Shown piece after piece: positions 3,573 to 39,804 of a stretch of DNA of 53,375 nt. The DNA lies in IMG/VR virus record IMGVR_UViG_3300036816_000028, positions 1 to 53,375 of that record, one strand, 5' to 3'. Position 1 is the first letter of the stretch, and every line of letters begins with the position of its first letter. The notes beneath the pieces are model-generated. The model worked only from the letters and a program-made list of their open reading frames with translations, had not been told where the DNA came from and did not search any database. The stretch comes from a virus. Both the position numbers and the translations under genes were made by a program.

Positions 3573-4241
3573 CTACCTTCCCCGGTCCGGCCGACCGGCG
3601 GTGGACGTGCCCGGGTGGCTGTACCACTTCCAGGTGACACGGTTGATGTGCTCGAACTTCGCTCCGCCGTCCAGGAGCCTGATCAGGTAATCCTCATCCT
3701 CTCCGCGGTACCGGCCATCCTGGAGCCGGTACCCGTCGCGGAAGCCCCCGGCGGCGCGGACGGCTTCGGTCCTCACCAGATGGGTCATCGGGATGAAGGA
3801 GCCCTGGCGCCGAAGGTGCGCTTCCTGCTCCTTTCCGAAGCGGATTCCCCAGGGCGCCCGGATCTGCCCCTGGAAGGTCACGGCCGTGGGGTCGGGACCG
3901 CCGATCATCTTCGGGGACGGGTAGACCAGATCGACGGCCGGGTCCGCCTCCAGGACGCGCATGCACGCCAGGATGTGGTGGGGCAGGAGTTCGTCGTCAT
4001 CGTCCAGCCAGGCCACCACGTCCGTGGCTACCCGCTCCAGCGCCCGGTTCCTCGCCTCCGCGGCGCCGGTGCGCTCCGCGTCGTACTCCGCCACCACCTG
4101 GTCCGGGAACCGGCGCTGGGCGCGTACAGAAGCCATGGCGCGCTCGAACAGCGCTTCCCGGCCGGGGATGGTAGGAATGACGATCGCCACCGTGAGCCGC
4201 TTCGGGTTCGGGCGCCCGGCGCGCCGCTTCGCCTCACCCAC
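3573..4241 (-). CDS. GT-A family 2 glycosyltransferase
   Basis: 222 residues with a family 2 glycosyltransferase core. The first beta strand is VAIVIPTIPGREALF (about 17-31), followed by EARNRALERV (about 62-71), the metal-binding acidic motif WLDDDDELLP (about 78-87) and the acceptor-side motif GEDEDYLIRLL (about 180-190). Such enzymes move a sugar from a nucleotide donor to an acceptor. It is the first of three GT-A enzymes, together with a sugar epimerase, within 3.4 kb. The acceptor is unknown: phage DNA, virion proteins or host glycans are all possible. Confidence 0.82.
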   Translation of the reverse strand: MGEAKRRAGRPNPKRLTVAIVIPTIPGREALFERAMASVRAQRRFPDQVVAEYDAERTGAAEARNRALERVATDVVAWLDDDDELLPHHILACMRVLEADPAVDLVYPSPKMIGGPDPTAVTFQGQIRAPWGIRFGKEQEAHLRRQGSFIPMTHLVRTEAVRAAGGFRDGYRLQDGRYRGEDEDYLIRLLDGGAKFEHINRVTWKWYSHPGTSTAGRPDRGR

Positions 4242-4503
4242 GGCCGGGCTTCCCCAGTACCTGGCTGATCTCCTCCGGCGTCATCTCCCGGCCGAAGGGC
4301 TGTTCCGGCGCAGTGAAGTCCACGTGGATGGCGGACACCGTCAGGGCCACCGTGTGGCCGCTGGCGTCGCTGTGCGCCCGCATCCACGCGGAGACGTCGT
4401 CCCAGGCCGTCCCGGTGTCGTTCTCCTTGCAGCCCAGGCACAGGGCCACGTAGAGCGGAATCGAGTCGGCCGGGGTCTTCCTCTTCTGCTCTCCCCAGGG
4501 CAT
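4234..4503 (-). CDS. small hypothetical protein in the sugar block
   Basis: 89 residues, unrecognised. The centre (DDVSAWMRAHSDASGHTVALTV) could be a small alpha/beta domain, and a CLGC pair sits near residue 22. GGAGG lies 4 nt before the ATG, and the start overlaps the epimerase stop. The stop overlaps the start of the next glycosyltransferase, so it is translated with the sugar genes. Confidence 0.6.
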   Translation of the reverse strand: MPWGEQKRKTPADSIPLYVALCLGCKENDTGTAWDDVSAWMRAHSDASGHTVALTVSAIHVDFTAPEQPFGREMTPEEISQVLGKPGRG

Positions 4504-5402
4504 TACGCCTCCTTTCTGAAACACCGGGCCACACCCTGTTCCAGCGTGACCTCCGGCGTGTAGTAGCGGAGCATCTTCGACGGGTCCCCGACCCGGTAGG
4601 CGACGCCGGTGGGCTTCCCGGGGTCGGCCGTGATGGACGCCGGGATGTAGCCCGCGGCAGCCGTGACCAGCTCCGCCAGCTCCCGGAACGACGTGGCCCG
4701 GCCGGTGCACAGGTTCACCGGATCGGTCACGTCCGCGTCGGCCAGCGCCATGACTCCCTTCACGATGTCGTCCACGTGGATGAAGTCCCGGACGCAGTCC
4801 CCGCACCACGTCGGGAACGGGTCCTCCCGGCGCCGTGCGCGCTCCACGAAGGCGCGGAAGGGGTAGGTGTCGTCCTGGTCCTCCCCGTAGCCGGAGAAGG
4901 GCCGTACGACCGTCACCGGGACACCGCTGGCGCGGAGCGATCCGGACAGCGCTTCGCCGACCACCTTCGACCAGCCGTACACCTGGTCCGGCGGGACCGC
5001 CGGACACGGGTCGTCTCCGTCGTGCTCGCTGAGCCAGGTCGGGGCAGTCGCACTCTGGTAGGCCGCCGGGTACATGGCGGAGGAGCTGAAGTAGACCACC
5101 CGGCCGGGCTTCGCCTTCGCGGCCCAGCGGAACATTTCGGCGTCGATGGCCAGGTTCACCGCGGTCTCCAGCGGGGAGCCGTCGATGACCTCCCGGCCGC
5201 CGACCACGGCCGCCGCGTGGACGACCAGGTCCCAGCGCCTGACGTCCCGGCCGCCGCGTTGAGCGTCCCGGAAGTAGTGGACGCAGTCCTGGGAGGAGGA
5301 GCGCTTCGTGTCCAGGCCGGTCACGGAGTACCCGCGTCGGACCAGCTCCGCGATGAAGTGGCGGCCCAGGAAGCCCAGGTCACCGGTCACCAGTGCTTCC
5401 AC
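4503..5402 (-). CDS. NAD-dependent epimerase/dehydratase (extended SDR)
   Basis: 299 residues. The NAD-binding loop TGDLGFLG is at residues 7-14, followed by VVHAAAVVGG, the serine stretch YFSSSAMYP and the YGWSK (YxxxK) catalytic motif. Extended short-chain dehydrogenases of this type epimerise or dehydrate nucleotide sugars. The GTG at 5402 is chosen because it lies 8 nt after AAGGGGAG and places the first Rossmann strand directly at the N terminus, as in the family. It probably prepares the donor sugar for the adjacent glycosyltransferases. Confidence 0.85.
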   Translation of the reverse strand: MEALVTGDLGFLGRHFIAELVRRGYSVTGLDTKRSSSQDCVHYFRDAQRGGRDVRRWDLVVHAAAVVGGREVIDGSPLETAVNLAIDAEMFRWAAKAKPGRVVYFSSSAMYPAAYQSATAPTWLSEHDGDDPCPAVPPDQVYGWSKVVGEALSGSLRASGVPVTVVRPFSGYGEDQDDTYPFRAFVERARRREDPFPTWCGDCVRDFIHVDDIVKGVMALADADVTDPVNLCTGRATSFRELAELVTAAAGYIPASITADPGKPTGVAYRVGDPSKMLRYYTPEVTLEQGVARCFRKEA

Positions 5403-5404
5403 GA

Positions 5405-5611
5405 TCACCACTCCCCTTTGAAGTGCGGCGCGTTCGCCGAAAGGTACTGGTTGTCGGTCAGCGGACGGGCGATGGTCCAGGAGCGCCGCGGGTGAAGCGT
5501 CTTCGGCGCGTAGCAGTGTCGGCAGATCCACCGGCGCCAGCCGCGCGGTTCGAACGGGTGGGGCTCCACCTTGGACGGGTGGATCTTCGTAACGTCGGGC
5601 TTCCTCACCAT
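5405..5611 (-). CDS. small CxxC protein
   Basis: 68 residues with one CRHC pair (WICRHCYAPKTLHPR) and flanking His residues that could bind zinc. Its ATG at 5611 overlaps the stop of the upstream glycosyltransferase, and its stop sits at the start of the epimerase. No function is assigned. Confidence 0.6.
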   Translation of the reverse strand: MVRKPDVTKIHPSKVEPHPFEPRGWRRWICRHCYAPKTLHPRRSWTIARPLTDNQYLSANAPHFKGEW

Positions 5612-6213
5612 GCGCTCCCACTCCCCGACGTGTTGCCGCCGTGCCAGCGCCACTCCCAGGTCCGGGCGTAGTGGTGGACGAACTTGGCGCCTTCGTTCAG
5701 ACACTTGATCCACATGCCCCAGTCCTCACAGGGGTTGCCCGGATCGCCCCGGTGCTCGAACCCGCCGACGTGGTGGAGCAGGGACGTCCGCGCCAGGACC
5801 GTGATCGGGATGTAGTTCTGGTGGCTGCGGATCGTCTCCGCGTCGAACTCCCGGCCTTCGTACTGCGGGAACGGATCGGTTCCTACCGGCAGGTCGAACC
5901 AGGGGTACACCACGTCCGCGTTAGTGTCCCTGGCGGTCTCCAGGAGCGCTTCCACGTGGTGCGGGTACCAACGGTCGTCGGAGTCGAGAAAGGCCGCCCA
6001 CTCCGCCGTGACGCCCGCCAGGGCCCGGGTCCTGGTGACGGCCGCACCGTCGTGTTCGGTGTCCACCGCCACATGGATGGCGTCCACCGGCCGGGACTGC
6101 GCGGTGACGGAGACCAGGGCGTCGATCAGCATGCCGTTCGCCACGTTCGGCGCGTGGACGGGGATGACGGCAGCCACTTGGCCGCGCCGGTACGGCCACG
6201 CGGTCCCGTTCAC
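5605..6213 (-). CDS. GT-A family 2 glycosyltransferase
   Basis: 202 residues. The core motifs are AAVIPVHAPN at the first strand, VTRTRALAGV, the metal-binding FLDSDDRWYPHH and the downstream CEDWGMWIKCL. It is a paralogue in fold, not a copy, of the other two enzymes. GTG at 6213 overlaps the upstream TGA in a GTGA junction. Confidence 0.8.
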   Translation of the reverse strand: MNGTAWPYRRGQVAAVIPVHAPNVANGMLIDALVSVTAQSRPVDAIHVAVDTEHDGAAVTRTRALAGVTAEWAAFLDSDDRWYPHHVEALLETARDTNADVVYPWFDLPVGTDPFPQYEGREFDAETIRSHQNYIPITVLARTSLLHHVGGFEHRGDPGNPCEDWGMWIKCLNEGAKFVHHYARTWEWRWHGGNTSGSGSAW

Positions 6214-18780: not shown

Positions 18781-19254
18781 ATGACGATCAAGGCCATTGA
18801 AACGGCCTACGGCGGATGCCGGTTCAGGTCCCGTCTGGAAGCCAGGTGGGCGGTCTTCTTCGACGCCCAGCACTGGACGTGGACCTACGAACCGCAGGGC
18901 TTCACGCTGCCGTCGGGGAACTACCTGCCGGACTTCCAGGTGGCGCCGTACGGTGGGGACCCGGTCTGGTTCGAGGTGAAGGCGCCGGGTGTGCCGGACG
19001 ACGCGCGGTGGCCGGAGCTGGCCGCCGCTACCGGCGTCCTGATCATCGTGGCGAAGGGCATGCACCGGACCGGAGACGACTGTATGACGGCGCACAGCGC
19101 CGACGTGTACGCGCCCGGGGGTGCGGGCCACGGGCTGAAGCTGTGGATGAACGCCCCGCGGTCGGCCTGGGACGCTGCCTCCGGCGCACGGTTCGAGCAC
19201 GGGGAGTCCGGAGCAGCCGGACGCCGCTCCGGGCGCGGACGGAGGCGTCGGTGA
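18781..19254 (+). CDS. PD-(D/E)XK-type nuclease
   Basis: 157 residues. The motif order is GGCRFRSRLEARWAVF, then YLPDFQV (Asp near residue 58) and WFEVKAPG (E-x-K near residue 70). It looks like a small replication-associated endonuclease. The basic tail (GRRSGRGRRRR) may bind DNA. GAGGAAGAGAG precedes the ATG. It directly precedes the primase-polymerase frame, with a GTGA overlap. Confidence 0.7.
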   Translation: MTIKAIETAYGGCRFRSRLEARWAVFFDAQHWTWTYEPQGFTLPSGNYLPDFQVAPYGGDPVWFEVKAPGVPDDARWPELAAATGVLIIVAKGMHRTGDDCMTAHSADVYAPGGAGHGLKLWMNAPRSAWDAASGARFEHGESGAAGRRSGRGRRRR

Positions 19255-22200
19255 CCGCGGAGGCGGTGGAGTCCACCGCTGCCGGGCGGCCGACCGACCA
19301 GGAGGCGTCCCCGCTGAGCCTGGCCCACCAGGCGGAGCTGGAGGCGTCCTGCGTCGGTGAGGAGCACATCGCGGCGCGCGGCTACCGCACGCTGTACGGG
19401 TCGGACGAAGACCGCACGGAGCTTCGGGACCTGCGCATCCCCCGTTGGATGTGGCGGGAGCCCACCGCATTCCCGGGTCTGCTCATCCCGGAGTACCGGG
19501 CCACCGGGGAGCTGATCGGCTACCAGTGGAAGCCGGGTCAGCCGCAGCGCAACCCGGAGGGCAAGCCGGTCAAGTACGCCAGTGCGACCGGGGCGCCCAA
19601 CCACATGGACATCCCGCCCCTGGTGGCGGACAAGGTCCGTGACCCGAAACACTCGCTGTGGATCACCGAAGGCGTGAAGAAGGCCGACTCCCTGGCGACG
19701 CTCGGGAAGGCCGTCGTCACGCTGACCGGCGTCTTCAACTGGCGGTCCAAGCTGGGCACGCTGGGCGACTGGGAGGACATCCCGCTGAAGGGCCGGACCA
19801 TCGTGGTCTGCTTCGACGCGGACGCCCGGGAGAAGCGCACGGTTCTCCTGGCCATGGTCCGGCTGGGCCGCTGGCTGACGTCCAAGGGTGCGGCCGACGT
19901 CCGGTACCTGATCGTCCCGGCAGAGGTGGAGCAGGAGGAGGGCGCGCCCGTCGCGGTGAAGGGCGTGGACGACTACTTCCGAGCTGGGGGGACGCTCGAA
20001 GAGCTGGGCGCGTTCGCCACCCGGGAGGAGCCGGGCGGGGGCGGCGCCCAGGACGCCAGCTTCAGTGACGCCGTGATGGCCGACACCGTGTGCGGTGAGG
20101 CGCTGGAGGGGGTCTTCCGCTGGTCCGCAGGACTGGGGTGGATGACCTGGACCGGGAAGGTCTGGCGGAAGGCCACGGACGCCACCGTGACCGAAGCGGT
20201 ACGTCTGTGGGCGCTGGCCCAGTTCGAACGGGTGCTGGAGCGCCAGCGGGACGACCCGAACCGGGACCTGCGGGCCCAGATCGACGGCTGGCGGAGCGCC
20301 CTGGGAAAGGCCAAGCTGAACGCCCTGGTGGCGTTGTCCCGGGGCATCCTGGAAAGCGATCCGGGGGACTTCGACGCCGACCCGGACGCGATCAACTGCC
20401 CGAACGGCATCGTGGACCTGCGAACGGGCTTGATCGTCCCGCACGACCCGGACCGACTGATGACGAAGATCACCGGCGTGGACTACGTCAAGGACGCGGA
20501 GAGCACCGACTGGCTGAAAGCGCTGGAGGCGTTGCCGGAGGGCGTGCGGGACTGGTTCCAACTCCGCATCGGCCAGGCCGTCACCGGCCATCTGACGCCC
20601 GACGACCTGGCCGTCATCTGCCAGGGCGGAGGGGAGAACGGGAAGTCCACAGTCTTCAATGCGCTCCTGGTGGCCACCGGGCTGTATCACATCATGGTGG
20701 CGGACCGGGCCATGTTGGGGAACGCCAGCGACAACCACCCCACGGAGATGATGGACTTCCGCGGCGCGCGGCTGGCGATGCTGGAGGAGACGCCGGAGGA
20801 GCGGCACCTGGACACCAACCGGCTGAAGAAGCTGGTGGGCACCCGGGAGATCACCGCCCGCGGGATGCGCCAGGACGACGTGACGTTCGAGACGACGCAC
20901 TCCCTGTTCGTGAACACGAACTTCGAACCGCAGGTCAACGAGACGGACCACGGGACCTGGCGCCGTCTGGCGCTCCTGAAATTCCCGTACACCTATCGCA
21001 AGCCCCATGAGCCCCTGATGGGCCCGAACGACCGGCGGGCGGACCCGACGCTCCGGCAGCGGGTGGAGACCCCCGCGGTGATGGAGGCGGCCCTGGCCTG
21101 GGCGGTGGAGGGCGCTCAGCGCTGGTACGCGGCCGACCGCATCATGCCGGGCCTGCCGGACCAGGTCGTTGCCGACACGATGGAGTGGCGCCAGAAGTCG
21201 GACCCGATCCTGAAGTTCGCGAACGAGAACCTGGAGTTCGACCGGGAGAGCCACATCACCGGCGCGGAGCTGACCGACGCGTTCATGTCCTTCCTGGAGT
21301 CGGAGCGGTCGAAGCCGTGGTCCGCGAAGACCTTCGTCAGCCGCTTCGGTGGTCACGATCTGTGTTCACGGAACGGGGTCGCATACAAGTTGATCAAGGC
21401 GCGGGCGGGCCGTTCGACGCGGAAGCCGAACCTGTCCGTATCGGCGTCCTACAAGGCGTGGCTGGGGGTGCGCTTCACCACCCCGGACGACACCGATCCG
21501 TCTCAGGATGTGGGATTTTCCCCGGAATCCCCGAACGAAGATCCTTTCGGGGATTTTAAGAACCCGCAGGTGGAAGGGGGTGTTCAAGATCAGGTAACCC
21601 CAGTAACCTCACCGCCGGTTAAGCGCCCTAGTACGCGAGAAACGCAGCTTAACCGGCGTAGAGGTTACTCAGGTTACCGAAACGATGTCGTTTCGATAAA
21701 TGAAGATCATCAGGAAGAAGAAATGTCCGAAATGAGCGAATCCACGGAGCCCGTGTTCTTCGACCTGGAGGGCGCGAACGCCGACGAACTGTTCACCTAC
21801 AGTGATGACGGAGGGTCACCGCCGGTCGGCTTCGTCCGGCTGGCCGGTGCCGCCGTCGGAGAGGGTGAGATCCGCACCGGTGTGCCGGTGGAGAAGCTGG
21901 TCCGGATGCTGGAGGAGCGGCCGTCGGCGGGCCACAACATCCTGGGCTTCGACGGCCTGGCGCTGGCCTTCCACCACGGCATGGACTGGGAGAAGTTCTG
22001 CGCCGGTGCGGTGGACACGGAGATCAACGCCCGGCTGGACGACCCCCCGCGGTCCAAGGAGACCGGTGGGAGTGAGGACCGGTACGACCTGGACCACATC
22101 GCCGCGAAGCTGGGGGTGGGTGGGAAGACCGACTCCGCCAAGCGGCTGAAGGACAAGTTCGGCGGGTACGACCGCATCCCCGTGGACGACCCGGAGTACC

Positions 22201-23489
22201 ACGCGTACCTGAAGGGCGACGTGGCCGCCACCCGGTCGGTGGCCGGTCGGCTGCCGATGACGGAGTACGGCCAGCGGGAGCACCTTCTGGCGTCCCTGGC
22301 GGGACGGATGACGCTCAACGGCTGCCGGGTGGACGTCGCGCTCCTGCGGAAGCGCCTGAAGGACGGCCAGGCACGCAAGCGGGCGGCCATGGAGGAGCTG
22401 GCGGACGGCCAGGGTCTTCCGCTGGGGCGCACCGTCATGCGCGGCCGGGGTGCGGCGAAGGCGCCGGTGTTCGAGCCCTTCAGCTCCCCTTTCAACACCA
22501 CGGAGGGGAAGGAGTGGCTGGCGGACCTATGGCAGCGCTTCGGGGTGGTCCGGCCGCCGGTGACCGACAGCGGGGCCCTGTCCACCGCCGCGGAGCGGCT
22601 GAAGGCTGTGGCGGACAACCCGCGGTGCCCGGCGGAGCTGAAGCACGTCCTGGAGCTGATGGAGGTCATCACCACCACCAGGACCGTCTACCAGACCGCT
22701 GCCACGTACATGACCGCCGAAGGCCGGGTGCACCCCATGGTCTCCATGCGCCAGGCGTCGGGCCGGTGGTCGCTGACGAAGCCGGGCCTGACCGTCTTCG
22801 GGAAGCGCGGCGGGCGCCACGTGGAGCGGGAGATCATCATTCCGGAGCGGGGCCATGTGGTCATCACCTGCGACCTGGCACAGGTGGACATGCGCGGGGT
22901 GGCGGGCCACTGCCAGGACCCGGCGTACATGGAGCTGTTTCAGCCCGGCAAGGACATCCACCAGGAGATCGCGGACATGCTGGGCATCGCCCGGCAGGAC
23001 GCGAAAGCGTTCGGCCACGGGTACAACTACGGGCTCTCACTGAACGGCGCGGTCCGCCGCGGTGCGGACCTGGAGCTGGCAAAGGTCTTCTACCAGGGCA
23101 TGGTCACCCAGTTCCCGGTCAAGGAGGAGTGGACGAAGAAGATCCAGTCCATGGGGGCCCACGGGGACCTCCTGGACAACGGCTTCGGGCGCAAGATGCG
23201 CTGCGACCCGGAGAGCGCCTTCACCGTCGCGCCCGCGCTGATGGGCCAGGGCAGTGCCCGGGACATCACCATGGAGGTCCTGATCCGGCTCATGACGGCG
23301 CACCCGGAGTACCGGCCGTTCCTGCGGATCTACGTCCACGACGAATTCGTCTTCTCCGTTCCGGAGGCCATGGCGGAGGAGGTCGGAGCGGAGATCGAGA
23401 AGGCGTTCACCTGGGAGTGGCGCGGCGTGCCGATTCTTTGTGATCGCACTGCACCCGCGGAGAGCTGGGGTGCGGCCAGTGCGAAGTGA
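19251..23489 (+). CDS. primase/SF3 helicase-family A DNA polymerase fusion
   Basis: One uninterrupted frame of 1412 codons. N-terminal half: TOPRIM-like WITEGVKK (about 137) and VVCFDADAR (about 186); SF3 helicase Walker A GGGENGKST (about 460) and MLEETPEER (about 510). C-terminal half: exonuclease motifs FFDLEG (836), HNILGFD and YLKGDVAAT (986); polymerase motif A CDLAQVDMR (1204), motif B RQDAKAFGHGYNYG (1248) and motif C VHDEF (1361). All proofreading and polymerase residues are present. GTG at 19251 lies 5 nt after GGAGG. Residues about 744-826 are a low-complexity linker. An in-frame ATG at 21723 after AGGAAGAAGAA could give a separate polymerase. Confidence 0.85.
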   Translation: MTAEAVESTAAGRPTDQEASPLSLAHQAELEASCVGEEHIAARGYRTLYGSDEDRTELRDLRIPRWMWREPTAFPGLLIPEYRATGELIGYQWKPGQPQRNPEGKPVKYASATGAPNHMDIPPLVADKVRDPKHSLWITEGVKKADSLATLGKAVVTLTGVFNWRSKLGTLGDWEDIPLKGRTIVVCFDADAREKRTVLLAMVRLGRWLTSKGAADVRYLIVPAEVEQEEGAPVAVKGVDDYFRAGGTLEELGAFATREEPGGGGAQDASFSDAVMADTVCGEALEGVFRWSAGLGWMTWTGKVWRKATDATVTEAVRLWALAQFERVLERQRDDPNRDLRAQIDGWRSALGKAKLNALVALSRGILESDPGDFDADPDAINCPNGIVDLRTGLIVPHDPDRLMTKITGVDYVKDAESTDWLKALEALPEGVRDWFQLRIGQAVTGHLTPDDLAVICQGGGENGKSTVFNALLVATGLYHIMVADRAMLGNASDNHPTEMMDFRGARLAMLEETPEERHLDTNRLKKLVGTREITARGMRQDDVTFETTHSLFVNTNFEPQVNETDHGTWRRLALLKFPYTYRKPHEPLMGPNDRRADPTLRQRVETPAVMEAALAWAVEGAQRWYAADRIMPGLPDQVVADTMEWRQKSDPILKFANENLEFDRESHITGAELTDAFMSFLESERSKPWSAKTFVSRFGGHDLCSRNGVAYKLIKARAGRSTRKPNLSVSASYKAWLGVRFTTPDDTDPSQDVGFSPESPNEDPFGDFKNPQVEGGVQDQVTPVTSPPVKRPSTRETQLNRRRGYSGYRNDVVSINEDHQEEEMSEMSESTEPVFFDLEGANADELFTYSDDGGSPPVGFVRLAGAAVGEGEIRTGVPVEKLVRMLEERPSAGHNILGFDGLALAFHHGMDWEKFCAGAVDTEINARLDDPPRSKETGGSEDRYDLDHIAAKLGVGGKTDSAKRLKDKFGGYDRIPVDDPEYHAYLKGDVAATRSVAGRLPMTEYGQREHLLASLAGRMTLNGCRVDVALLRKRLKDGQARKRAAMEELADGQGLPLGRTVMRGRGAAKAPVFEPFSSPFNTTEGKEWLADLWQRFGVVRPPVTDSGALSTAAERLKAVADNPRCPAELKHVLELMEVITTTRTVYQTAATYMTAEGRVHPMVSMRQASGRWSLTKPGLTVFGKRGGRHVEREIIIPERGHVVITCDLAQVDMRGVAGHCQDPAYMELFQPGKDIHQEIADMLGIARQDAKAFGHGYNYGLSLNGAVRRGADLELAKVFYQGMVTQFPVKEEWTKKIQSMGAHGDLLDNGFGRKMRCDPESAFTVAPALMGQGSARDITMEVLIRLMTAHPEYRPFLRIYVHDEFVFSVPEAMAEEVGAEIEKAFTWEWRGVPILCDRTAPAESWGAASAK
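21526..21555. repeat. 10-bp-arm dyad in the linker
   Basis: AATCCCCGAA (21526-21535) and TTCGGGGATT (21546-21555) pair perfectly over a 10-nt loop, inside the primase-polymerase linker. Confidence 0.7.
21593..21678. repeat. 32-bp-arm inverted repeat, origin-like
   Basis: Left arm 21593-21624 and right arm 21647-21678 match at 28 of 32 positions, around a 22-nt centre. All three matching blocks share one axis at 21635.5. Each arm contains two GTAACC-type units 9 bp apart. The arms are rich in A/T compared with flanking DNA. Located in coding sequence. Confidence 0.8.
21678..21695. repeat. 8-bp-arm palindrome CGAAACGA-TG-TCGTTTCG
   Basis: Perfect 18-bp dyad abutting the large inverted repeat; ideal size and symmetry for a dimeric DNA-binding protein. 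It lies 28 bases before a possible internal start at 21723. Confidence 0.7.
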
Positions 23490-26127: not shown

Positions 26128-26233
26128 GTTATGCGTAAGTCTCTGACCTGCGAAAATGAAGATTCTTTGGCGCCGGACGACGCACACAGGGCGCGCGGGT
26201 AGCCTTACTCCAGCCGATGAAAGGAATGGAACC

Positions 26234-27130
26234 GTGACTTACGGATTCAGCATGGAGGACGGCGTGTACCGTCGTGATCTCCCGCGTACGGACCGACGTC
26301 TGGGCCGACACGTCCGCCACGACCACCGGTCCGCGCGGTACGCCGTCGGCGTGCTGCCGAAGCGCGCCATCCAGAAGGTGAGCTGGACCCGGCGCATCGG
26401 AATCCTGGACCAGCTTCAACTGGGCAAGTGCACCGCGGAGGCGTTCACCGGCGCGGCCGGGACGGACAGCGCGGCGGGCCAGGGCCAGACCTCCGTGACG
26501 CTGGCCGCCTCCGCGGCCGGGCGCGGCTTCCTGAACGCCGGGCAGACCTACGCCCTGGACGACACGTTCTCCACGGCCTTCTACAGCGTGGAGACGGCGG
26601 ACGACAGCTACCCGGGCTCCTACCCGCCCGACGACACCGGCTCCGACGCGCTGGGTGCCATGGCCGCGGGCAAGGCGCTGGGGCTGGTCGGCCAGTACCA
26701 GCACGCCATGAGCTACGCCGCGGCGGTCTCCGCCATCCAGTCCGGCGCGCTGCTGTGGGGGACCACGTTCTACAACTCCATGTTTGACCTGGACTCCAAG
26801 GGCTACTTCGTGGTCAACCCGAAGTCGGGTGTGGCGGGCGGCCATGAGATGGTCCTCACCAGCTACGACCCGGAGACCGACGAATGGGGCGGGGACAACT
26901 CCTGGAACGAGAGCTGGGGCCCGCTGGACGGATCGTTCAAGATCACGGGGAAGAATCTGACCGCGCTCCTGAAGGACGACGGGGACGTGACGCTCCCGGT
27001 GTGGACCTTCGCGCCGATCACACCCGTCCCGCCCACTCCGCCGGTGCCGCCGACGCCCGCGACCGTGGACGACTCCGCACTGTGGGCCGCTGCGCAGTCC
27101 TGGGCGGCCGGTAAGGGGTTCACCGCGTGA
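26234..27130 (+). CDS. papain-like (C1) cysteine peptidase
   Basis: 298 residues. QLQLGKCTAEAF supplies the oxyanion Gln and nucleophile Cys (about 60-66), GGHEMVLTSYD the His (about 203) and DNSWNESWG the Asn (about 221): the papain triad in normal order. The N terminus is Arg/His-rich and basic, with no signal peptide. A Pro-rich hinge (PVPPTPPVPPTP) leads to a helical C-terminal tail. GTG at 26234 is preferred with AAGGA upstream. It could be a virion protease, a host-directed enzyme or part of lysis. Confidence 0.65.
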   Translation: MTYGFSMEDGVYRRDLPRTDRRLGRHVRHDHRSARYAVGVLPKRAIQKVSWTRRIGILDQLQLGKCTAEAFTGAAGTDSAAGQGQTSVTLAASAAGRGFLNAGQTYALDDTFSTAFYSVETADDSYPGSYPPDDTGSDALGAMAAGKALGLVGQYQHAMSYAAAVSAIQSGALLWGTTFYNSMFDLDSKGYFVVNPKSGVAGGHEMVLTSYDPETDEWGGDNSWNESWGPLDGSFKITGKNLTALLKDDGDVTLPVWTFAPITPVPPTPPVPPTPATVDDSALWAAAQSWAAGKGFTA

Positions 27131-30341: not shown

Positions 30342-30583
30342 GTGACCCGACCCCGTTCGACGCCGGGAACCGTCTCCTGGACGAAGTCCCCGCGGAGCTG
30401 ACCACCACGATCATGAACGGGCCCGGCGGACAGCGGCTGGCCGTGACCGTGCGCACGCCGTCCACGACCGTTACCGTTCTCCTGGCGAAGGACTGGGCGG
30501 AGCGGTGGCGCGATCAGATCGCGTCCGCCATCGCGTCCATGTCCGGCCTGATCCTCCCCCTGAACGGAGATCCCCATGGCTGA
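30338..30583 (+). CDS. small hypothetical protein
   Basis: 81 residues, beta-rich (ELTTTIMNGPGGQRLAVTVR; TTVTVLLAKDWAERW). GTGA overlap with the upstream gene. Function unknown. Confidence 0.55.
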   Translation: MSDPTPFDAGNRLLDEVPAELTTTIMNGPGGQRLAVTVRTPSTTVTVLLAKDWAERWRDQIASAIASMSGLILPLNGDPHG

Positions 30584-31172
30584 GTGGCGACTGACCGACG
30601 AACTGGTCCCGCACGTGTCCACCGCCGACTATCACCACGATCGGGAGCGCGCGCCGCACCTGGAGCAGCCCTGGCACCGGCCGCGCCTGGAACAGGCGGC
30701 CGCCTTCGTGCGCAAGGCTGCGGAACTGGGCGCGGTCACCTGGTCGGACCTGGGGTGCGGGGACGGCGGCCTCCTGTATCTCGCCCAGGACGTCTTCACC
30801 CATGCATGGGGTTACGACTTCCAGCCGTCGAATGCTGCGGGCTGGGTGGAGCGCGGCGTTCAGGCACAGGCTCTGGACGTGTTCGGGAAGGGCCGGGCCG
30901 CGGCGGCGCTGGGCGACGTCGTGTCCATGACCGAAGTCCTGGAGCACGTCGCGGAGCCGCACCTGACACTGACCCGGCTGGCCATCGACCCCCGGCCGCG
31001 CTTCCTGGTGTGCTCCAGCCCGTGGAACGAGCATCCGGGAAACCACAGCGATTGCCACGCCTGGGCCTGGGACATGGTGGGCTACCGCGCCATGGTCGAA
31101 GACGCCGGGTGGTCGGTGATCGATCACGTCCCGGTCGGGTTGTTCCAGGTCATCCTGGCGGAATCCCGCTGA
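30576..31172 (+). CDS. class I SAM-dependent methyltransferase
   Basis: 198 residues. The SAM-binding loop is WSDLGCGDGGLL (about 56-67), then a fold with GYDFQPS, VVSMTEVLEHVAEP (about 113-126) and a late FLVCSSPWNE strand. Of the UbiE/COQ5-like kind. Substrate unknown; in phages such enzymes modify sugars, small molecules, proteins or DNA. It overlaps the upstream gene by 8 nt. Confidence 0.75.
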   Translation: MAEWRLTDELVPHVSTADYHHDRERAPHLEQPWHRPRLEQAAAFVRKAAELGAVTWSDLGCGDGGLLYLAQDVFTHAWGYDFQPSNAAGWVERGVQAQALDVFGKGRAAAALGDVVSMTEVLEHVAEPHLTLTRLAIDPRPRFLVCSSPWNEHPGNHSDCHAWAWDMVGYRAMVEDAGWSVIDHVPVGLFQVILAESR

Positions 31173-32227: not shown

Positions 32228-34057
32228 ATGCCGTGGTACAACGCCCTGGGCTTCGGCCGCCGACCGGCGCCGCCGGACGTCCCGGCTTCCCTGACCGCGG
32301 CGGCTGCGCCCGTCAAGGGCCCGCAGTCCCAGTTCCTCCAGCACACCCAGAACTGGCAGAACGAAGCCTGGGACTTCTACGACGCCAACGGGGAGTACAA
32401 CTACGGCGTCACCTGGCTGGCCAACATGATGTCCCAGGTCCGACTCCGCGCCGCCCGGTTGGACCCGGAACTGGACGAACCGGAGATCCTGAACGACGGC
32501 GCAGCCGCGGAGATCATCGCCAAGATGAACGGCGGTGTGGGCGGCCAGTCCCAGATGATGCGGTCGCTGTCCACCCAGCTCTCTGTTCCCGGTGACTGCT
32601 ACCTGATCGGGGAGCAGACGGGCCCGGCGGAGAAGTGGACCGTTCGGTCCGTGGACGAAGTCCGGGCGCAGTCTGGCCGCTTCCAGGTCGTGACCGGGCG
32701 TACGCCCAGCGTGGAGTGGTCCGACCTCCCGCCGGACTCGATTCCGGTACGGATCTGGCGTCCGCATGAGCGTTGGCACCACATCGCCGACAGCCCGTCC
32801 CGCTCCGCCCTGTCCACCATGCGGGAACTGGAACTGGTCAACCGGCACATCACCGCCCAATACCTGTCCCGGCTGGCGTCGGCCGGTGTGCTGATCCTGC
32901 CGGAAGAGGTGACCTTCCCGGTGCGGGAGGAGTTCGAAGACGCTCCGGACCCGTTCGTGGCGGAGTGGGTGGAGGTGGCGCGGGAAGGCATCGCCAACCC
33001 GGGCACGGCGTCCGCCGTTGTTCCGATCCCGATCCGTGTCCCCGGTGAGTACGTGGACAAGATCAAACACCTGGACTTCACGCTCAAGATCGATGACAAG
33101 ATCATCGAAAAGCGGGACAGCGCGATCAACCGCCTGGCCACCCAGATGGACATCCCGACCGAAGTCCTGACCGGCATGGGCAAGGTCAACCACTGGACCG
33201 CCTGGCAACTGGACGAAGGCAGCCTGAAGACGCACATTGCGCCGCTGGCGGAGGTCATCTGCTACTCCCTGACCACCGGGTACTTCCAGGCGCGGCTGGC
33301 CGCCTCCAACGTGCCAGACCCGGAACAGTACGTGGTTTGGTACGACATGTCCGAACTGGCCATCCGGCCGGACAACAGCACTAACGCTCAGGCCGCCTAC
33401 GACCGTCTGGAGATCTCTGGGTCCGCGCTGCGTCGTGAGACCGGCTTCGGTGAGGACGACGCTCCGACCACCCAGGAGCTGGAGGCCATGACCCAGAAGG
33501 CCATCTTGCGCGAGGCTCCGGCGTCCCCGATGGCTGCGGTGGCGGCCGACGCCCTGGCCGGGAAGCATGTCTTCGCCGATGCCATGGGCGGGACCGCGGC
33601 ATCCGGCACCGGCGGGGAGGTGGGCACCAAGCAACCCGCGGAGTCGTCCGACGACGGAGCACCGCCGGGGCCGCCGTCCACGTCTCCGCCGTCCCAGGCC
33701 GCACCGAAGGACACGCCTCCGTCCACATCCCCGCCCGGCGCGGAGCGTGCGTCGGCCGCGGTGATCCGCGCGTCCGCCCAGGCGTCCGCCGTCCACGTGC
33801 TGCGCTACTCCGTGGACGCCGTACCGCAGCTTCTGCATCCACCGGGTGTGTGCTCCACGCACGCGTATTCCTGCCCGTTCACACACAGTGCCTGGGGCCG
33901 CTGGCTTCCGTCTCTGACCACCGGGACCTACGAAGTCCGCCTGGACGCCTTCGGACAGCTCCGGGTGGGCCGTTTCGCGCCGGAAATGGACACGTTGGGC
34001 TGGATCACCACCACAACGGCGGTGGGTCGGAAGGGGACCAACTATGCCCGCGCATGA
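32228..34057 (+). CDS. portal protein
   Basis: 609 residues, the usual portal size. Between terminase and the MuF/protease gene. NEAWDFYDANGEYNYGVTWL (about 43-62), RLRAARLDPELDE, WRPHERWHHIADSP and the long helix region with PTEVLTGMGKVNHWTAWQLDE (about 317-337, split across the core) match actinophage portals. It forms the dodecameric DNA entry ring at one capsid vertex. The C-terminal ~140 residues are Pro/Ala/Ser-rich with an unrecognised Cys/His end. ATG follows GGGAGGC. Confidence 0.82.
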   Translation: MPWYNALGFGRRPAPPDVPASLTAAAAPVKGPQSQFLQHTQNWQNEAWDFYDANGEYNYGVTWLANMMSQVRLRAARLDPELDEPEILNDGAAAEIIAKMNGGVGGQSQMMRSLSTQLSVPGDCYLIGEQTGPAEKWTVRSVDEVRAQSGRFQVVTGRTPSVEWSDLPPDSIPVRIWRPHERWHHIADSPSRSALSTMRELELVNRHITAQYLSRLASAGVLILPEEVTFPVREEFEDAPDPFVAEWVEVAREGIANPGTASAVVPIPIRVPGEYVDKIKHLDFTLKIDDKIIEKRDSAINRLATQMDIPTEVLTGMGKVNHWTAWQLDEGSLKTHIAPLAEVICYSLTTGYFQARLAASNVPDPEQYVVWYDMSELAIRPDNSTNAQAAYDRLEISGSALRRETGFGEDDAPTTQELEAMTQKAILREAPASPMAAVAADALAGKHVFADAMGGTAASGTGGEVGTKQPAESSDDGAPPGPPSTSPPSQAAPKDTPPSTSPPGAERASAAVIRASAQASAVHVLRYSVDAVPQLLHPPGVCSTHAYSCPFTHSAWGRWLPSLTTGTYEVRLDAFGQLRVGRFAPEMDTLGWITTTTAVGRKGTNYARA

Positions 34058-37000
34058 TCATTTCACGGGCGCGCATAACGCGATCACCGCGGACGCGTCC
34101 AGCGACCACCTGAGTGGCTGCATGGTCGCGCTCATGCCGACCGAACAGGACGCCGCACGGATGGCCGTGGACGGCGGGGAGGCAGCGGCGGACCTCCATC
34201 TGACGCTGGCCTACCTGGGCCCCGACGCGAACGCCTGGGACGACGCCGCGCGGACGGAGCTGACCGGCTTCCTGCGCTCCGTCATCCAGTCCTCCGAATT
34301 CGGCTCCTGGAACAGCTTCACTGCGAAGGTCTTCGGGGCCGCACACTGGAACGGTGACGGAGACAGCCCGGCCTGGGTGTGGAGCGTCGGTGACCAGCCG
34401 GACGACGACTCCATGGACCACGACGGGGACGCCCTGGAGGACTACCACGACCTGGTGTTCGACGCGCTGGAATCCGGCCACGACCACCCGGATCTCCCGG
34501 CGCCGCACAGCCCGTGGGTGGCGCACATCTGCGCCGCCTACAGCGCGGACGACGCGTTCCTTCCGCTCCTGGAGGCCAAGCTGGGGACGGTCACCTTTGA
34601 CCGCCTCCGGCTGTCGTTCGGGGACGACGACACGGACATCCCGCTGAACACCGATGTGGCCATGTCCGGCCCGTTGACGGCCGCCGGGATGCGCCGCAAG
34701 CCCAAGGGGTTCGAGAGTGCGTCCACTGTGGACTTCGCGCTCATGGACAGCTCCTGGAAGGCCGCGGTGGACCGGGCCTACGTAGCCTGGATGGCCATCC
34801 TGTCCGCTCAGCGCCAGGAGCTGACCGACCAGGTGAAGGCTGCTGTGGACGGCGGGGACTTCGCCGACCTGGCCGCTATGACCGTCTCCACCGCGGCGGC
34901 TGTGGACCTCCTGTCAGAGCACATGGCGCGCTTCGCCCAGACCGCCGGTCAGCAACAGGAGCACGAAGCAGACCGACAGGGCGTGGCCGTCCCGCCCTGG
35001 GCGCTGACCGACGACGACCCGGAAGGCGTGACCGCTTCCCTGTCGTCGGCCGCGAAGTCCTTCCTGTCCCGCATGCGCGCGTACGCCTCCGTCGTCGCCT
35101 CCAGCCTGGCCAACCGAATGGTGTCCTCCGCGTCCCAGCGCTCCATCACGCTGGCGGAGGCGGACGCCGACGGCGCGGCGGTCGCGCGGGACGTGGAGAC
35201 CTACCTGGCCGACCACCCGAAGGCGTATGTCCGGCAGGGCATCGCGGCGGCCATGACCATGGCTCAGAACACGGGCCGTCTGGCGGTGCTCACCGCGGCG
35301 CCGCCGGGGAGCTACTACGCCTCCGAAATGCTGGACTCGAACACCTGCGGGCCGTGCCGCGCGATCGACGGTAAGGAATTCGCCACGCTCAACGCGGCGG
35401 AGGATGCGTACCCCGCCGGGGGCTACGTGGACTGTGCGGGCGGATCAGCCTGCCGGGGAACCATGGTCACCGTCTGGGACGCCGGACAGACCGCCAGTGC
35501 GACACCGAAGGAGGGCATCGTGGCGGAAACCGAAGACCTGGGCGGGAAGCCGAACCCGGGCACGAAGAAGGACAAGCGGCTGAAGGAGAACGACCAGGGC
35601 AAGGCGAAGGCCGTCGGCGACGCCGACCACTTCGCCGCTGGCGCGTCCGTGTCGGACAAGCCCTGGGACGGCGCCGCCAGCCGCTTCAACGACGACCAGT
35701 GGAAGCGCGCCACCGCGGCCTGTGACGGGGACGGAACACCCAAGGAGGCGTGCTTCCTGCCTCACCACGAACCGGACGGCACGCTGAACCGGAACGGCCT
35801 GCACGCGGCGGCACAGCGCGTCGGCTCCGTCACCGGCCGCTCCCCGGCGGCTGTCGCGCACGCGAAGTCCCACCTGCGCAACCACTACAGCCAGATCGGG
35901 GAGGATGCTCCGGACTCGATCGCGGCCACCCTGGGCGACGCCGTGGAAATGGCACTGGCCCCGGCCGACCCGGACGCCGTCATGCCCGCTTCCGACAGCA
36001 ACACTGCACCCTGGCGCGGACCGCTGGCCGTGGAGGGGAAGACCACCGGCGACGGTCGGGAGTTCGCCGCGGGGTCTCTGACCTGGCGTGACCTCCCGGT
36101 GCCGCTGCGCTGGAACAAGGAGGACTCCCACGGAGGTGAAGCCCACACCGTGGCCGTCAACGTCGGCCGGATTGACAAGATCTGGCGTGAGGGTGACCTG
36201 GTCATGGGGGAGGGCGTCTTCAACCTGGCGGAGGCCGACGGCCAGCGCGCGCACGACCTGGTGAAGGGCCAGTTCCTGCGCGGTGTCTCGATCGACGCCG
36301 ACTCCATTTCCGACAAGGACGTGGAGTACGTCTGGCCGGACGTCGGACCGGAGGACGGCGACGGGGAGGACATGGACATCCTGGATCTCCTCTTCGCCCA
36401 GCCGGAGAAGGTGCTGTTCCACGCCGGGCGGATCAGCGCGGCCACCCTGTGCGACATCCCCGCCTTCGCGGAGGCGTATGTGGCGCTCCTGGATAGTGAA
36501 GGCGCGGTGACCGCGGGCGGGACCCCGGCCGGAGCACAGGGCGGGGGAGGCTACGCGGTGCGCGGCGTGCGGGCGCGGACCGTGGACGGCCTGACGGCGG
36601 CCATCAGCGCGCCGGACTGGAAGCCGCCCGCGGAGTGGTTCGCGAACCCCCAGCTCTCCCTTCCGACCGGCATCCAGGTCACGGACGACGGCCGTGTCTA
36701 CGGCCATGCGGCCACCTGGGGCTCCTGTCACATCGGTCAGGCCGACGTGTGCGTCCAGCCGCCGCGGGAAGAGAACCACCCGTACTACATGACCGGAGAG
36801 GTGGTCACGGCTGACGGAGGGCGCGTCTCGGTCGGCCAGATCACCGTGGGCACCGGCCACGCGCCGCTGTCGATGGGCGCCGTTCCGGCGACCGAGCACT
36901 ACGACCACACCGGCCACGCAGTCGCGGACGTCCACGTCGGAAACGATGAACACGGGATCTGGGTGGCGGGCGCCATCCGGCCGGGCGCACCGGCGGACCT

Positions 37001-37283
37001 GGTCCACGCCCTGCGCGCGGCGGGCCAGGTGTCCGGAGACTGGCGCCGGATCGGCTCCGCGCTGCGCTTGGTCGGTCTCCTGGCCGTCAACGTCCCCGGT
37101 TTCCCGGTGCCGAAGATGGCCACGCGGGTGACTGCGTCGGCTGCCGGGTCCGAAGTCCAGACCGCACTGGTGGCCGCCGGGCGCCCGCCGGTCGCGCACG
37201 GCACCACGGAGAAGGAGCTGATCCAGGCGTCCTTCCGGACGGTCATGGACGCGCTGTCCCGCGGTGTCCACAGCGAGAGCTGA
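34044..37283 (+). CDS. 2H phosphoesterase-MuF-capsid protease fusion
   Basis: 1079 residues in one frame. Residues 20-210: 2H phosphoesterase pattern with DLHLTLAYLG (about 50) and VAHICAAYS (about 157). Residues about 240-480: MuF-like minor head domain ending in the zinc-like motif DSNTCGPCRAIDG...SACRGTM. Residues about 650-815: prohead protease-like domain (FAAGSLTWRDLPVPLRW, FLRGVSIDAD). Residues about 862-1025: the actinophage protease C-terminal domain (DGRVYGHAATWGSCHIG...LSMGAVPATEHYDHTG). Links head assembly, possible RNA/nucleotide processing and capsid maturation. GGAAGGGG precedes the ATG, which overlaps the portal by 14 nt. Confidence 0.75.
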   Translation: MPAHDHFTGAHNAITADASSDHLSGCMVALMPTEQDAARMAVDGGEAAADLHLTLAYLGPDANAWDDAARTELTGFLRSVIQSSEFGSWNSFTAKVFGAAHWNGDGDSPAWVWSVGDQPDDDSMDHDGDALEDYHDLVFDALESGHDHPDLPAPHSPWVAHICAAYSADDAFLPLLEAKLGTVTFDRLRLSFGDDDTDIPLNTDVAMSGPLTAAGMRRKPKGFESASTVDFALMDSSWKAAVDRAYVAWMAILSAQRQELTDQVKAAVDGGDFADLAAMTVSTAAAVDLLSEHMARFAQTAGQQQEHEADRQGVAVPPWALTDDDPEGVTASLSSAAKSFLSRMRAYASVVASSLANRMVSSASQRSITLAEADADGAAVARDVETYLADHPKAYVRQGIAAAMTMAQNTGRLAVLTAAPPGSYYASEMLDSNTCGPCRAIDGKEFATLNAAEDAYPAGGYVDCAGGSACRGTMVTVWDAGQTASATPKEGIVAETEDLGGKPNPGTKKDKRLKENDQGKAKAVGDADHFAAGASVSDKPWDGAASRFNDDQWKRATAACDGDGTPKEACFLPHHEPDGTLNRNGLHAAAQRVGSVTGRSPAAVAHAKSHLRNHYSQIGEDAPDSIAATLGDAVEMALAPADPDAVMPASDSNTAPWRGPLAVEGKTTGDGREFAAGSLTWRDLPVPLRWNKEDSHGGEAHTVAVNVGRIDKIWREGDLVMGEGVFNLAEADGQRAHDLVKGQFLRGVSIDADSISDKDVEYVWPDVGPEDGDGEDMDILDLLFAQPEKVLFHAGRISAATLCDIPAFAEAYVALLDSEGAVTAGGTPAGAQGGGGYAVRGVRARTVDGLTAAISAPDWKPPAEWFANPQLSLPTGIQVTDDGRVYGHAATWGSCHIGQADVCVQPPREENHPYYMTGEVVTADGGRVSVGQITVGTGHAPLSMGAVPATEHYDHTGHAVADVHVGNDEHGIWVAGAIRPGAPADLVHALRAAGQVSGDWRRIGSALRLVGLLAVNVPGFPVPKMATRVTASAAGSEVQTALVAAGRPPVAHGTTEKELIQASFRTVMDALSRGVHSES

Positions 37284-38016: not shown

Positions 38017-39804
38017 GTGCCCGAACAGTTCGAGAAGACCGACAAGTACCCGGCGCCGGATGACCTCACCACGGTTTCCGACGCCGACCTTCAGGAGCTG
38101 GAGACGGAGTTCGTCGGCTCCTTCGACGCAGTCCACAATCTCCAGGACTTCACCCCGGAGATGGTGGAGTACGCGATGGGCCTCCGGAACGACCTGGACC
38201 GGATCAAGGCGGAGCTGTCCGCCAGGGCCGTCCGCGCCCAGACCCAGGCGACCCAGGCCAAGCTGAAGGCGGACCGCCAGATGGCGGAGCTGAAGGAGGC
38301 CGTCCACGGACCGGCCGAAGGCTCCCCGGAGGCTGTCGCAGCGGCGGCCATCGACCAGTCCAAGCGGGACGCCGCGCTGGCGGAGGTGGTCTCCACGTCG
38401 GTCGTCAAGGGCTTCATGGAGATCCTGGGCGACCGCGCGGGCAAGGAGATCGTCAAGGGTGCACGCGGCGGGGCCGTCGTCGCCTCCCTGGGTGCCACCG
38501 CGGCGAAGGCGCCGAAGCCTGGCGTCCCGTCGCAGCGCCTGGCCATCACCGCGGCGGGCTCCGGCCAGGATCTCCCGTCCCTGGACGCGCTGGCCGCGGA
38601 GTTCACCCGCATGGCCCAGGGCGTGCCGACCACCCGCCTGGGCGGGAACGCGCCCGTCTACCCGGTGGCGAAGGTCCGGAACGACTTCGAACACACCGTC
38701 GACAGTCGGACCTCCCCGGGTGAGGTGGAGGAGATCTGGCGCAAGCTGGTCAACCGCGAGACCCAGGAAGCCCTGGTGGCCGGTGGTGGGTGGTGTGCCC
38801 CGTCGGAGGTCATGTACGACTTTTTCAACATCGCTGACAGTGACGGCGCGATCGACCTCCCCACGGTCGGCGTGAGCCGGGGCGGCATCCGCTTCCCGGT
38901 CTCCCCGTCCATCGGTGACGTGTTCTTCCAGAACGCGGGCACCAACCCGGCGTCCGGCTTCGGCGGTTTCGCCTTCCCGTTCAGCAACGCTTCCGACCCG
39001 TGGCTGTGGACGGAGGCCGATGACATCGCGACCGTCACCGGCTCCGTGAACAAGCCGACGCTCCGCGTCCCCTGCGCCAGCTTCAACGAAGTGCGGCTGG
39101 AGGCGTACGGCCTCACGGTCACCGCGGGCAACCTGACCGACAGCGCGTACCCGGAGGCCACCCGGAACTTCATCCGGCTCCTGCGCGCAGCCTACGCGCA
39201 CGCGATCAATGCGCGGCTGATCGGGCTCATGGACACCGCGTCCGGCAGCACGAACACCATCGGCGCCATCACGACCGACCCGGCCGCGCCGCGCATCTTC
39301 AACGCGGTGGCCCTGGCCGCCACGGACTACCGCGCGAAGTACGCGATGAACACGAACGCGGTGCTGGAGGTCATCATCCCCTACTGGGTCCGGGAGGTCA
39401 TCCGGGCCGACCTGGCGTACAAGCAGGGGATCAACTCCACGGAACTCCTGGCCGTCATCGACTCCCAGATCGACGCGTTCTTCACGGCGCGCAAGGTCCG
39501 GGTCCAGTGGGTGAACGACTACCAGGTCCGCGGCTCCGGCCAGTTCGGCGCGGCGGTCCAGACCACGTGGCCCACCACTGTGAACTTCATGGTCTACGCG
39601 GCCGGGACGTTCCTCCACGGGACCGGCCTCCAGTTGGACCTGGGCGTCGTCCGTGACTCCGTCCTGAACGCGGAGAACGACTTCACCGCGGCCTGGGCGG
39701 AGGAGGCGCACCTGATCGCGATGGTGGGCCACGCCAGCCGGAAGTACACGGTGGCCTTCCAGGTCAACGGCGCCAGCGGTGGCGGCACCACCGCGCGCGT
39801 CTGA
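38017..39804 (+). CDS. major capsid protein (HK97-type) with scaffold region
   Basis: 595 residues. The N-terminal ~110 residues are coiled coil (LQELETEFVGSF; RAQTQATQAKLKADRQMAELK), acting as an in-line scaffold (delta domain), which explains the lack of a separate scaffold gene. The rest reads as an HK97 fold, with EVRLEAYGLTVTAGN, NFIRLLRAAYAHAIN and the late VLEVIIPYWVREVIRADLAY. Proteolysis by the fused protease upstream would remove the N terminus. Start GTG at 38017. Confidence 0.78.
   Translation: MPEQFEKTDKYPAPDDLTTVSDADLQELETEFVGSFDAVHNLQDFTPEMVEYAMGLRNDLDRIKAELSARAVRAQTQATQAKLKADRQMAELKEAVHGPAEGSPEAVAAAAIDQSKRDAALAEVVSTSVVKGFMEILGDRAGKEIVKGARGGAVVASLGATAAKAPKPGVPSQRLAITAAGSGQDLPSLDALAAEFTRMAQGVPTTRLGGNAPVYPVAKVRNDFEHTVDSRTSPGEVEEIWRKLVNRETQEALVAGGGWCAPSEVMYDFFNIADSDGAIDLPTVGVSRGGIRFPVSPSIGDVFFQNAGTNPASGFGGFAFPFSNASDPWLWTEADDIATVTGSVNKPTLRVPCASFNEVRLEAYGLTVTAGNLTDSAYPEATRNFIRLLRAAYAHAINARLIGLMDTASGSTNTIGAITTDPAAPRIFNAVALAATDYRAKYAMNTNAVLEVIIPYWVREVIRADLAYKQGINSTELLAVIDSQIDAFFTARKVRVQWVNDYQVRGSGQFGAAVQTTWPTTVNFMVYAAGTFLHGTGLQLDLGVVRDSVLNAENDFTAAWAEEAHLIAMVGHASRKYTVAFQVNGASGGGTTARV

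Follow-up and report, generated by a model that had tools for sequence, protein, structure and literature searches.

A 2H phosphoesterase-fold domain at the front of a MuF and maturation protease polyprotein: candidate virion cargo in actinophage head modules

Introduction

What is a 2H phosphoesterase-type domain doing at the front of a phage head protein? The question is raised by the IMG/VR virus record IMGVR_UViG_3300036816_000028, a stretch of 53,375 bases that was analysed at its full length (hereafter, the window). Between its portal and major capsid genes lies one long gene, which is predicted to encode a head-assembly polyprotein preceded by such a domain. We put the probability at about 0.5 that the first ~200 residues are a 2H phosphoesterase cargo that is packaged, ejected and active on RNA ends or nucleotide signals; we infer its catalysis, packaging, ejection and substrate.

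Precedents for cargo of this kind are found in the open text of earlier papers (here and below without figures or supplements). In SPP1, the portal draws the MuF protein gp7 into the procapsid interior, and gp7 aids the start of infection (PMC6316719). T4 Alt, an ADP-ribosyltransferase (ART), is packaged in the head and injected, and numerous predicted effectors are fusions with MuF (PMC5512222). Iyer et al. (2017) proposed that MuF-2H and portal-2H fusions are packaged effectors, acting as RNases or as erasers of oligonucleotide signals (PMC5512222), and a 2022 paper restated the packaging idea for 2H fusions (PMC9503650). VIP2-MuF and MuF-protease fusions have been described in Microbacterium phages, in a text that does not name 2H there (PMC7302621).

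Results

Fold and family of the N-terminal domain

The gene and the features of its front domain are as follows.

34044-37283, + strand: polyprotein gene, 2H - MuF - helical segment - maturation protease - C-terminal domain (open reading frame (ORF); hidden Markov models (HMMs) of the relatives' domains; third-position GC 0.90)
34104-34646, + strand: 2H phosphoesterase domain, residues 21-201, the 2H fold reaching to about 203 (PHROG 2659; Pfam in relatives; AlphaFold2 model; comparison with the PDB)
34197-34205, + strand: first motif, H52-L-T54 (H and T kept in 128/128 distinct domains)
34524-34532, + strand: second motif, H161-I-C163 (H kept in 128/128 distinct domains)

A preliminary description, made from the bases alone, had reported a frame of 1079 residues here, and this frame stands: it starts with an ATG, runs uninterrupted for 1079 codons, has a coding-type third-position GC content of 0.90 and is matched over nearly its full length, at 85% identity, by a relative that is open at its 3' end (L011). 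The complete polyprotein found no match in Pfam or NCBIfam. Its front nevertheless belongs to a recognisable family. PHROG 2659 matches residues 7-204 with an E-value of 6.6e-25, and the Pfam family 2_5_RNA_ligase2 matches the window weakly (E 0.0021; 18.5 bits at a cut-off of 27). The front domains of 47 aligned members match 2_5_RNA_ligase2 in 30 cases and LigT_PEase in 16.

An AlphaFold2 model of residues 1-205, built from 38 sequences, reached a mean predicted local distance difference test (pLDDT) score of 86.7. Compared with the PDB, it yielded Z-scores of 14.6 to TT0787 (1iuh), 14.4 to the cyclic phosphodiesterase (CPDase) drCPDase, 13.4 to E. coli LigT (5ldm) and 12.9-13.2 to human Usb1. 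Rotavirus VP3 phosphodiesterase (Z 11.6), Acb1 (Z 10.3) and the poxvirus cyclic GMP-AMP phosphodiesterase (Z 9.7) followed, and AKAP18 domains and mitoribosome proteins were also among the matches. Foldseek E-values were best with Usb1 (1.3e-05). The Acb1 family PF23474 matched weakly in two of the 47 members (best E 0.017), the window not being one of them. By homology and by its modelled fold, which has the duplicated 2H arrangement, the front domain is of the 2H (LigT/Usb1) type, and the 2H phosphoesterase domain that the preliminary description had placed at the front of a head protein is thus borne out by PHROG 2659, the relatives' Pfam matches and Z-scores of 13-14.6 to LigT-type structures.

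PHROG names the front of the polyprotein 'RNA ligase' and its rear head maturation protease or portal. GenBank names and PHROG 2659 suggest an RNA ligase. This reading was rejected, since the matching part is the 2H fold; Pfam matches of the scanned members gave no sign of a ligase domain. The name probably goes back to '2'-5' RNA ligase', an older name for the 2H fold.

Active-site motifs

A canonical 2H active site has a serine or threonine two positions past each histidine. The first motif of the window fits this consensus (T54); the second, with C163, does not, a point that the preliminary description had not noted. Across 128 distinct domains, counted after identical copies had been removed, both histidines are invariant, in the most divergent 2H members as well, so that the loss of both histidines in relatives, named by the preliminary description as a possible refutation, was not seen. 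An earlier set gave the same picture, with both histidines and T54 conserved in 74/74 distinct domains. Because the search patterns of the viral and genome scans included the motifs themselves, the conservation count is biased; exempt from this are domains found by the other motif and the named phages retrieved by BLAST without motif selection, in which both histidines are conserved in 19/19.

The third residue of the second motif is C in 87 of the 128 domains and T in 36; alanine takes this place in 3, serine in 1 and arginine in 1, where the single H-x-R row may be a misalignment. T or S is thus kept in 37/128, and the full H-x-T pair in 36/128. Within this set, H-x-C is typical of 2H-MuF and most MuF-2H polyproteins. 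H-x-T was found in all short stand-alone copies (9/9), in the CTD-2H (4/4), S78-2H-CTD (2/2) and 2H-S78-CTD (1/1) orders, where CTD denotes a conserved C-terminal domain described below, and in other fused copies (8/8). Because C163 replaces threonine in the second motif, we classify the window domain, on its sequence, as a 2H homologue and not as a canonical 2H enzyme, and the H-x-C site leaves canonical 2H chemistry unproven for it.

MuF, protease and C-terminal domains

Behind the 2H domain, the polyprotein contains four further segments.

34719-35498, + strand: MuF-like domain, residues 226-485 (PF04233 in relatives; PHROG 595)
35709-35936, + strand: short conserved helical segment, residues 556-631 (own HMM, 13/81 proteins; helices in the model; no family name)
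36006-36488, + strand: capsid maturation protease domain of T4 gp21/herpes assemblin type, residues 655-815 (structure comparison; Peptidase_S77; invariant columns)
36624-37187, + strand: conserved CTD of actinophage maturation-protease proteins, residues 861-1048 (PHROG 18402, head maturation protease, 854-1055)

PF04233 (Phage_Mu_F) matches 12 of 39 full-length relatives, with a best E-value of 1.2e-4; the window itself is unmatched by it, and its residues 397-554 are matched by PHROG 595 (E 2.5e-8). The protease assignment rests on structure and on conserved residues. Residues 650-806 of the model superimpose on T4 gp21 (5jbl) with Z 9.5 and a root-mean-square deviation of 3.1 over 122 aligned residues, and on herpesvirus proteases with Z 6-7 (7.3 for 1vzv). 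Peptidase_S77 matches four of the 39 full-length relatives, and H696 and S749 are invariant in the alignment. An assemblin-type fold with conserved His and Ser identifies residues ~650-806 as a predicted maturation protease. The full-length model is modest (pLDDT 68) and of low confidence at residues 861-1048; the lack of a usable structure match from it for residues 222-490 and 861-1048 carries no weight. The earlier count of three or four joined functions was fair, the 2H, MuF-like and protease domains being accompanied by a fourth conserved domain at residues 861-1048.

Recurrence and domain order

The 2H domain recurs in head modules in many arrangements. In the viral-contig set, comprising the window and its 80 best relatives, 2H is fused to MuF in 81/81 proteins, 73 times as 2H-MuF and eight times as MuF-2H; some of these proteins have no protease, where the contig ends or the protein stops after MuF. 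The MuF domains of window-type and Streptomyces-type proteins were modelled by two separate HMMs. With the same HMMs, 47 loci in bacterial genomes divided into 32 with the order MuF-2H-protease-CTD, six with 2H-MuF-protease-CTD, two with protease-2H-CTD and seven with a 2H match only. Five of these seven are longer proteins, of which four (L131, L129, L123 and L135; not L130) were scanned with Pfam. L131 combines 2H with a Mu-like prohead protease (PF10123). L129:5974-8592, from Dactylosporangium fulvum, has 2H at the front and an ART exoenzyme domain at the end of the same protein, and this chain may hold two candidate injected effectors. The Pfam scan gave nothing else of note beyond 2H in L123 and L135.

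Named phages add further orders. EMoore, Dexdert, Vivi2 and Lilbeanie have CTD-2H, Kithara has 2H-protease-CTD, and in Kovu and Salgado 2H is fused to an XkdF-type protease. Clown, Wizard, Pupper, Stormageddon, McWolfish, Phabba and E3 carry 2H as a short separate gene, and in GMA6 a 2H protein of 324 residues is encoded between the portal and an ART gene. Arthrobacter phage Beagle gp25 (L153:2969-5632) is annotated merely as a fusion of maturation protease and MuF, and has a 2H match between them (E 2e-9). The protease types fused to 2H thus include S77/S78-like, XkdF and Mu-like_Pro, and within actinophage head modules 2H can follow MuF or the protease, lie between protease domains, be fused or adjacent to ARTs, or stand alone. 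In 20 of 20 named 2H phages read in context, which were picked for diversity from hit lists and are neither random nor independent, 2H lies within or beside the portal-protease-capsid genes. Portal, MuF, protease or capsid genes are annotated nearby in 19 of them; for phiSAJS1 the placement relies on synteny and the label of a second record.

Two side observations concern such phages. Gordonia phage EMoore has a gene for a histidine-triad nucleotide-binding protein (gp10, L009:4961-5323) between its MuF-type and 2H-protease genes, perhaps another nucleotide-directed cargo. In large Gordonia and Mycobacterium phages (L005, L007 and L141), the order behind the portal is a ThyX-like thymidylate synthase gene and then the stand-alone 2H gene.

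In tblastn searches of 50,697 phage records, the CTD was found in 831 (E 1e-5) and the 2H domain in 391 (E 0.01), almost exclusively in actinobacterial phages. A comparison set of seven CTD proteins comprised six with no 2H match and one (Beagle) with such a match. By these counts the 2H domain is optional, as the backbone functions without it in many phages.

Evolution of the 2H module

A tree of the 2H domain was built from 77 of the 128 distinct domains (72% identity cut, some truncated classes left out); Kithara, GMA6, L135 and L137 form long branches. Domain architecture changes 13 times on this tree, against a minimum of 10 and 40.6 on shuffled labels, so that by this measure domain orders are mostly inherited, yet have been altered several times. 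The 2H tree groups window-type with Streptomyces-type domains (99/95), whereas the CTD tree separates them. The trees suggest separate histories of 2H and backbone in the window lineage; a transfer into it is not supported by the test, because the CTD data do not reject placing the two types together (p value of the approximately unbiased test (p-AU) 0.34, and 0.321 in a second test). The case is clearer for a Nonomuraea prophage (L132), chosen post hoc after the first tree: its CTD and backbone fall within the Streptomyces-type (100/100), a placement that the 2H data reject (p-AU 0.005). A swap is supported by these trees, the 2H domain of this prophage being of a different lineage from its backbone.

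Between the window and L011, the ratio of non-synonymous to synonymous substitution rates is 0.30 for 2H, 0.16 for MuF, 0.13 for the protease and 0.07 for the CTD. Over 1035 pairs, conservation is lower in 2H than in the protease domains in 995-996, and lower in 2H than in MuF in 212.

Neighbouring genes and host

The polyprotein gene is flanked by two head genes.

32228-34057, + strand: portal protein (PHROG 776, portal, 7.6e-130), overlapping the start of the polyprotein gene by 14 bases
38017-39804, + strand: major capsid protein (PHROG 777, major head protein, 7.4e-115), downstream of the polyprotein gene

A near-identity search with 20 kb around the polyprotein gene matched no named phage. 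The host of the virus is probably an actinomycete, since the closest prophages by 2H domain are those of Streptomyces, at 54% identity.

Elsewhere in the window, a gene for an S-adenosylmethionine-dependent methyltransferase (Methyltransf_23; 30576-31172, +) lies shortly upstream of the portal region, and a match to PHROG 16701 'peptidase' (26156-27130, +; 4.5e-33), with no Pfam match, stands immediately ahead of the terminase gene. In a 1557-residue replication fusion (18816-23489, +), a family A DNA polymerase is joined to DUF3854, D5_N and DUF5906, which are primase/helicase-like. The record's left end encodes a family 2 glycosyltransferase (3573-4241, -) and an NAD-dependent epimerase (4503-5621, -). 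Either these are unusual siphophage cargo, or they point to host genes that flank the virus or were borrowed by it.

Discussion

In the pathway that we propose, the 2H-fold domain would enter the prohead as part of the head-assembly polyprotein, held within the shell by MuF, in SPP1 a portal-binding minor head protein, and by the maturation protease. Trimming of the polyprotein by the protease is probable, with cleavage that would fall between the domains, and the 2H-MuF part would remain in the head and exit with the DNA. Once in the cell, the target of 2H would be a 2',3'-cyclic or 2'-5' phosphodiester bond, most likely in an RNA end left by an RNA-cutting defence or in a small nucleotide signal. 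Several findings agree with this proposal. 2H is repeatedly joined to MuF or to a maturation protease, both of which are internal to the prohead, and the fusion therefore fits an encapsidation tag. That it recurs among the head genes speaks for a virion cargo. The ARTs that are fused to 2H in L129 or adjacent to it in GMA6 fit such a role, T4 Alt, a known injected cargo, being an ART. The 2H fold, both histidines and the first threonine kept in 128/128 domains, a substitution-rate ratio below 1 in the domain and its optional presence on the backbone also speak for the proposal. As to substrate, the modelled fold lies nearer to LigT, CPDase and Usb1 (Z 13-14.6) than to Acb1 (Z 10.3), so that an RNA end or 2',3'-cyclic phosphate is somewhat favoured over the signals of the cyclic-oligonucleotide-based antiphage signalling system (CBASS). 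The preliminary description had raised both host RNA ends and cyclic-oligonucleotide defence signals as possible substrates, and its reading is partly supported.

Four points weigh against a packaged and ejected phosphoesterase. The cysteine in place of threonine in the window and most relatives, like the alanine in 3/128 and the arginine in 1/128, may weaken catalysis. Our literature search found no virion or enzyme data on 2H head proteins, and the polyprotein model yields no cleavage sites. An arms-race signature was considered and dropped: 2H evolves faster than the protease domains, but slower than MuF, and therefore bears no special mark of this kind.

These substitutions also lend some credence to an unlikely alternative, in which 2H is a non-catalytic nucleotide- or RNA-binding module for head assembly, as some 2H-fold proteins are. 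The AKAP18 domains and mitoribosome proteins among the PDB matches point the same way, as does the MuF of phage Mu itself, which according to the text of PMC5512222 has an inactive RNase-like domain. Against this stand the two histidines kept in all 128 domains, divergent members included, and the full H-x-T pair in 36 of them; assembly, moreover, does not need 2H, because many phages with the same backbone are without it. It is rather unlikely, too, that the domain acts in the producing cell and not after injection, whether as a late RNA-end healing enzyme fused by chance or as a helper in RNA repair. Stand-alone copies in the head operons of Gordonia, Mycobacterium and Rhodococcus phages would suit such a role, and 2H enzymes do work in RNA repair (PMC9503650). 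However, most members are fused to MuF or protease, the scanned ORFs of the window, which did not include the small ones, showed no recognisable RNA ligase or kinase, and in the text of PMC5512222 these 2H versions are never seen with RNA ligases.

The two remaining alternatives differ in what an injected enzyme would attack. An Usb1-like RNase directed against host RNA, neither healer nor signal eraser, would agree with the best Foldseek E-values and is one of the two roles favoured in the text of PMC5512222; we consider it improbable, as LigT and CPDase structures score equally or higher by Z and no RNA-binding extension was seen. A strict anti-CBASS enzyme with Acb1 function is more improbable still. 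Acb1 shares the fold and PF23474 finds its two weak matches, but its Z-score lies 3-4 units below those of LigT-type enzymes and most members do not match Acb1.

How does the proposed packaged phosphoesterase compare with known systems? Streptomyces phage TurkishDelight gp15 and Mycobacterium phage Akoma gp12 ('capsid maturation protease and MuF-like fusion protein') resemble the window polyprotein in joining MuF, protease and CTD in one protein in the portal-capsid interval. In TurkishDelight gp15, however, MuF precedes 2H, Akoma gp12 is without 2H, and 2H is unnamed in both records. Gordonia phage Vivi2 gp16 and Mycobacterium phage McWolfish gp93 ('RNA ligase') contain the same 2H domain in the head module; unlike in the window, 2H stands alone or behind the protease CTD in such 'RNA ligase' products. 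Acb1 is a phage-encoded 2H fold like the window domain, with a lower structural similarity to it than LigT or Usb1. To our knowledge, Acb1 is not fused to head proteins.

MuF polymorphic toxins likewise fuse an enzyme to MuF and are thought to travel in the virion (PMC5576092). Their toxin lies C-terminal of MuF (PMC6316719), whereas the window enzyme precedes it, which places the window polyprotein outside this class; an immunity gene was not searched for. The closest precedents are the fusions of Iyer et al., in which 2H is joined to a head protein and predicted to be packaged and injected, as in the window (texts of PMC5512222 and PMC9503650). In comparison with these, the window polyprotein adds a maturation protease and the CTD, domain order varies in its family, and the second motif is mostly H-x-C. 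The text of PMC5512222, figures not covered, names a protease fusion for Nudix but not for 2H. Our literature search, which covered open-paper text without figures or supplements, found no description of 2H-protease polyproteins or of the H-x-C motif, and the main text on Myrna capsids (PMC7150772) does not mention an RNA ligase. The 2H mechanism is plausible, and its general form has been proposed before; what the present analysis adds are the protease-linked variants, the shuffling of a mobile module, the broad occurrence of that module behind misleading names, and the H-x-C site.

More tentatively, we suggest that tethering enzymes to the maturation protease or MuF might be a general route of cargo loading in actinophages. 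On this doubtful extension, 2H would have been inserted into head polyproteins with no fewer than three types of protease and in five or more orders, swapped between backbones, trimmed in the prohead and ejected, and the H-x-C branch would be a 2H subfamily with altered chemistry or substrate.

If the packaged phosphoesterase is real, hundreds of sequenced actinophages, many of them isolated on laboratory hosts such as Mycobacterium smegmatis mc2 155 and Gordonia terrae, would carry a pre-loaded enzyme able to act ahead of all phage gene expression. Their records would misname 2H as 'RNA ligase' or conceal it under 'capsid maturation protease'. Virion proteomics and point mutants in tractable phages would make the proposal of 2017, that 2H effectors are packaged, directly testable, and the family would offer a natural collection of tethers by which proteins could be loaded into phage heads.

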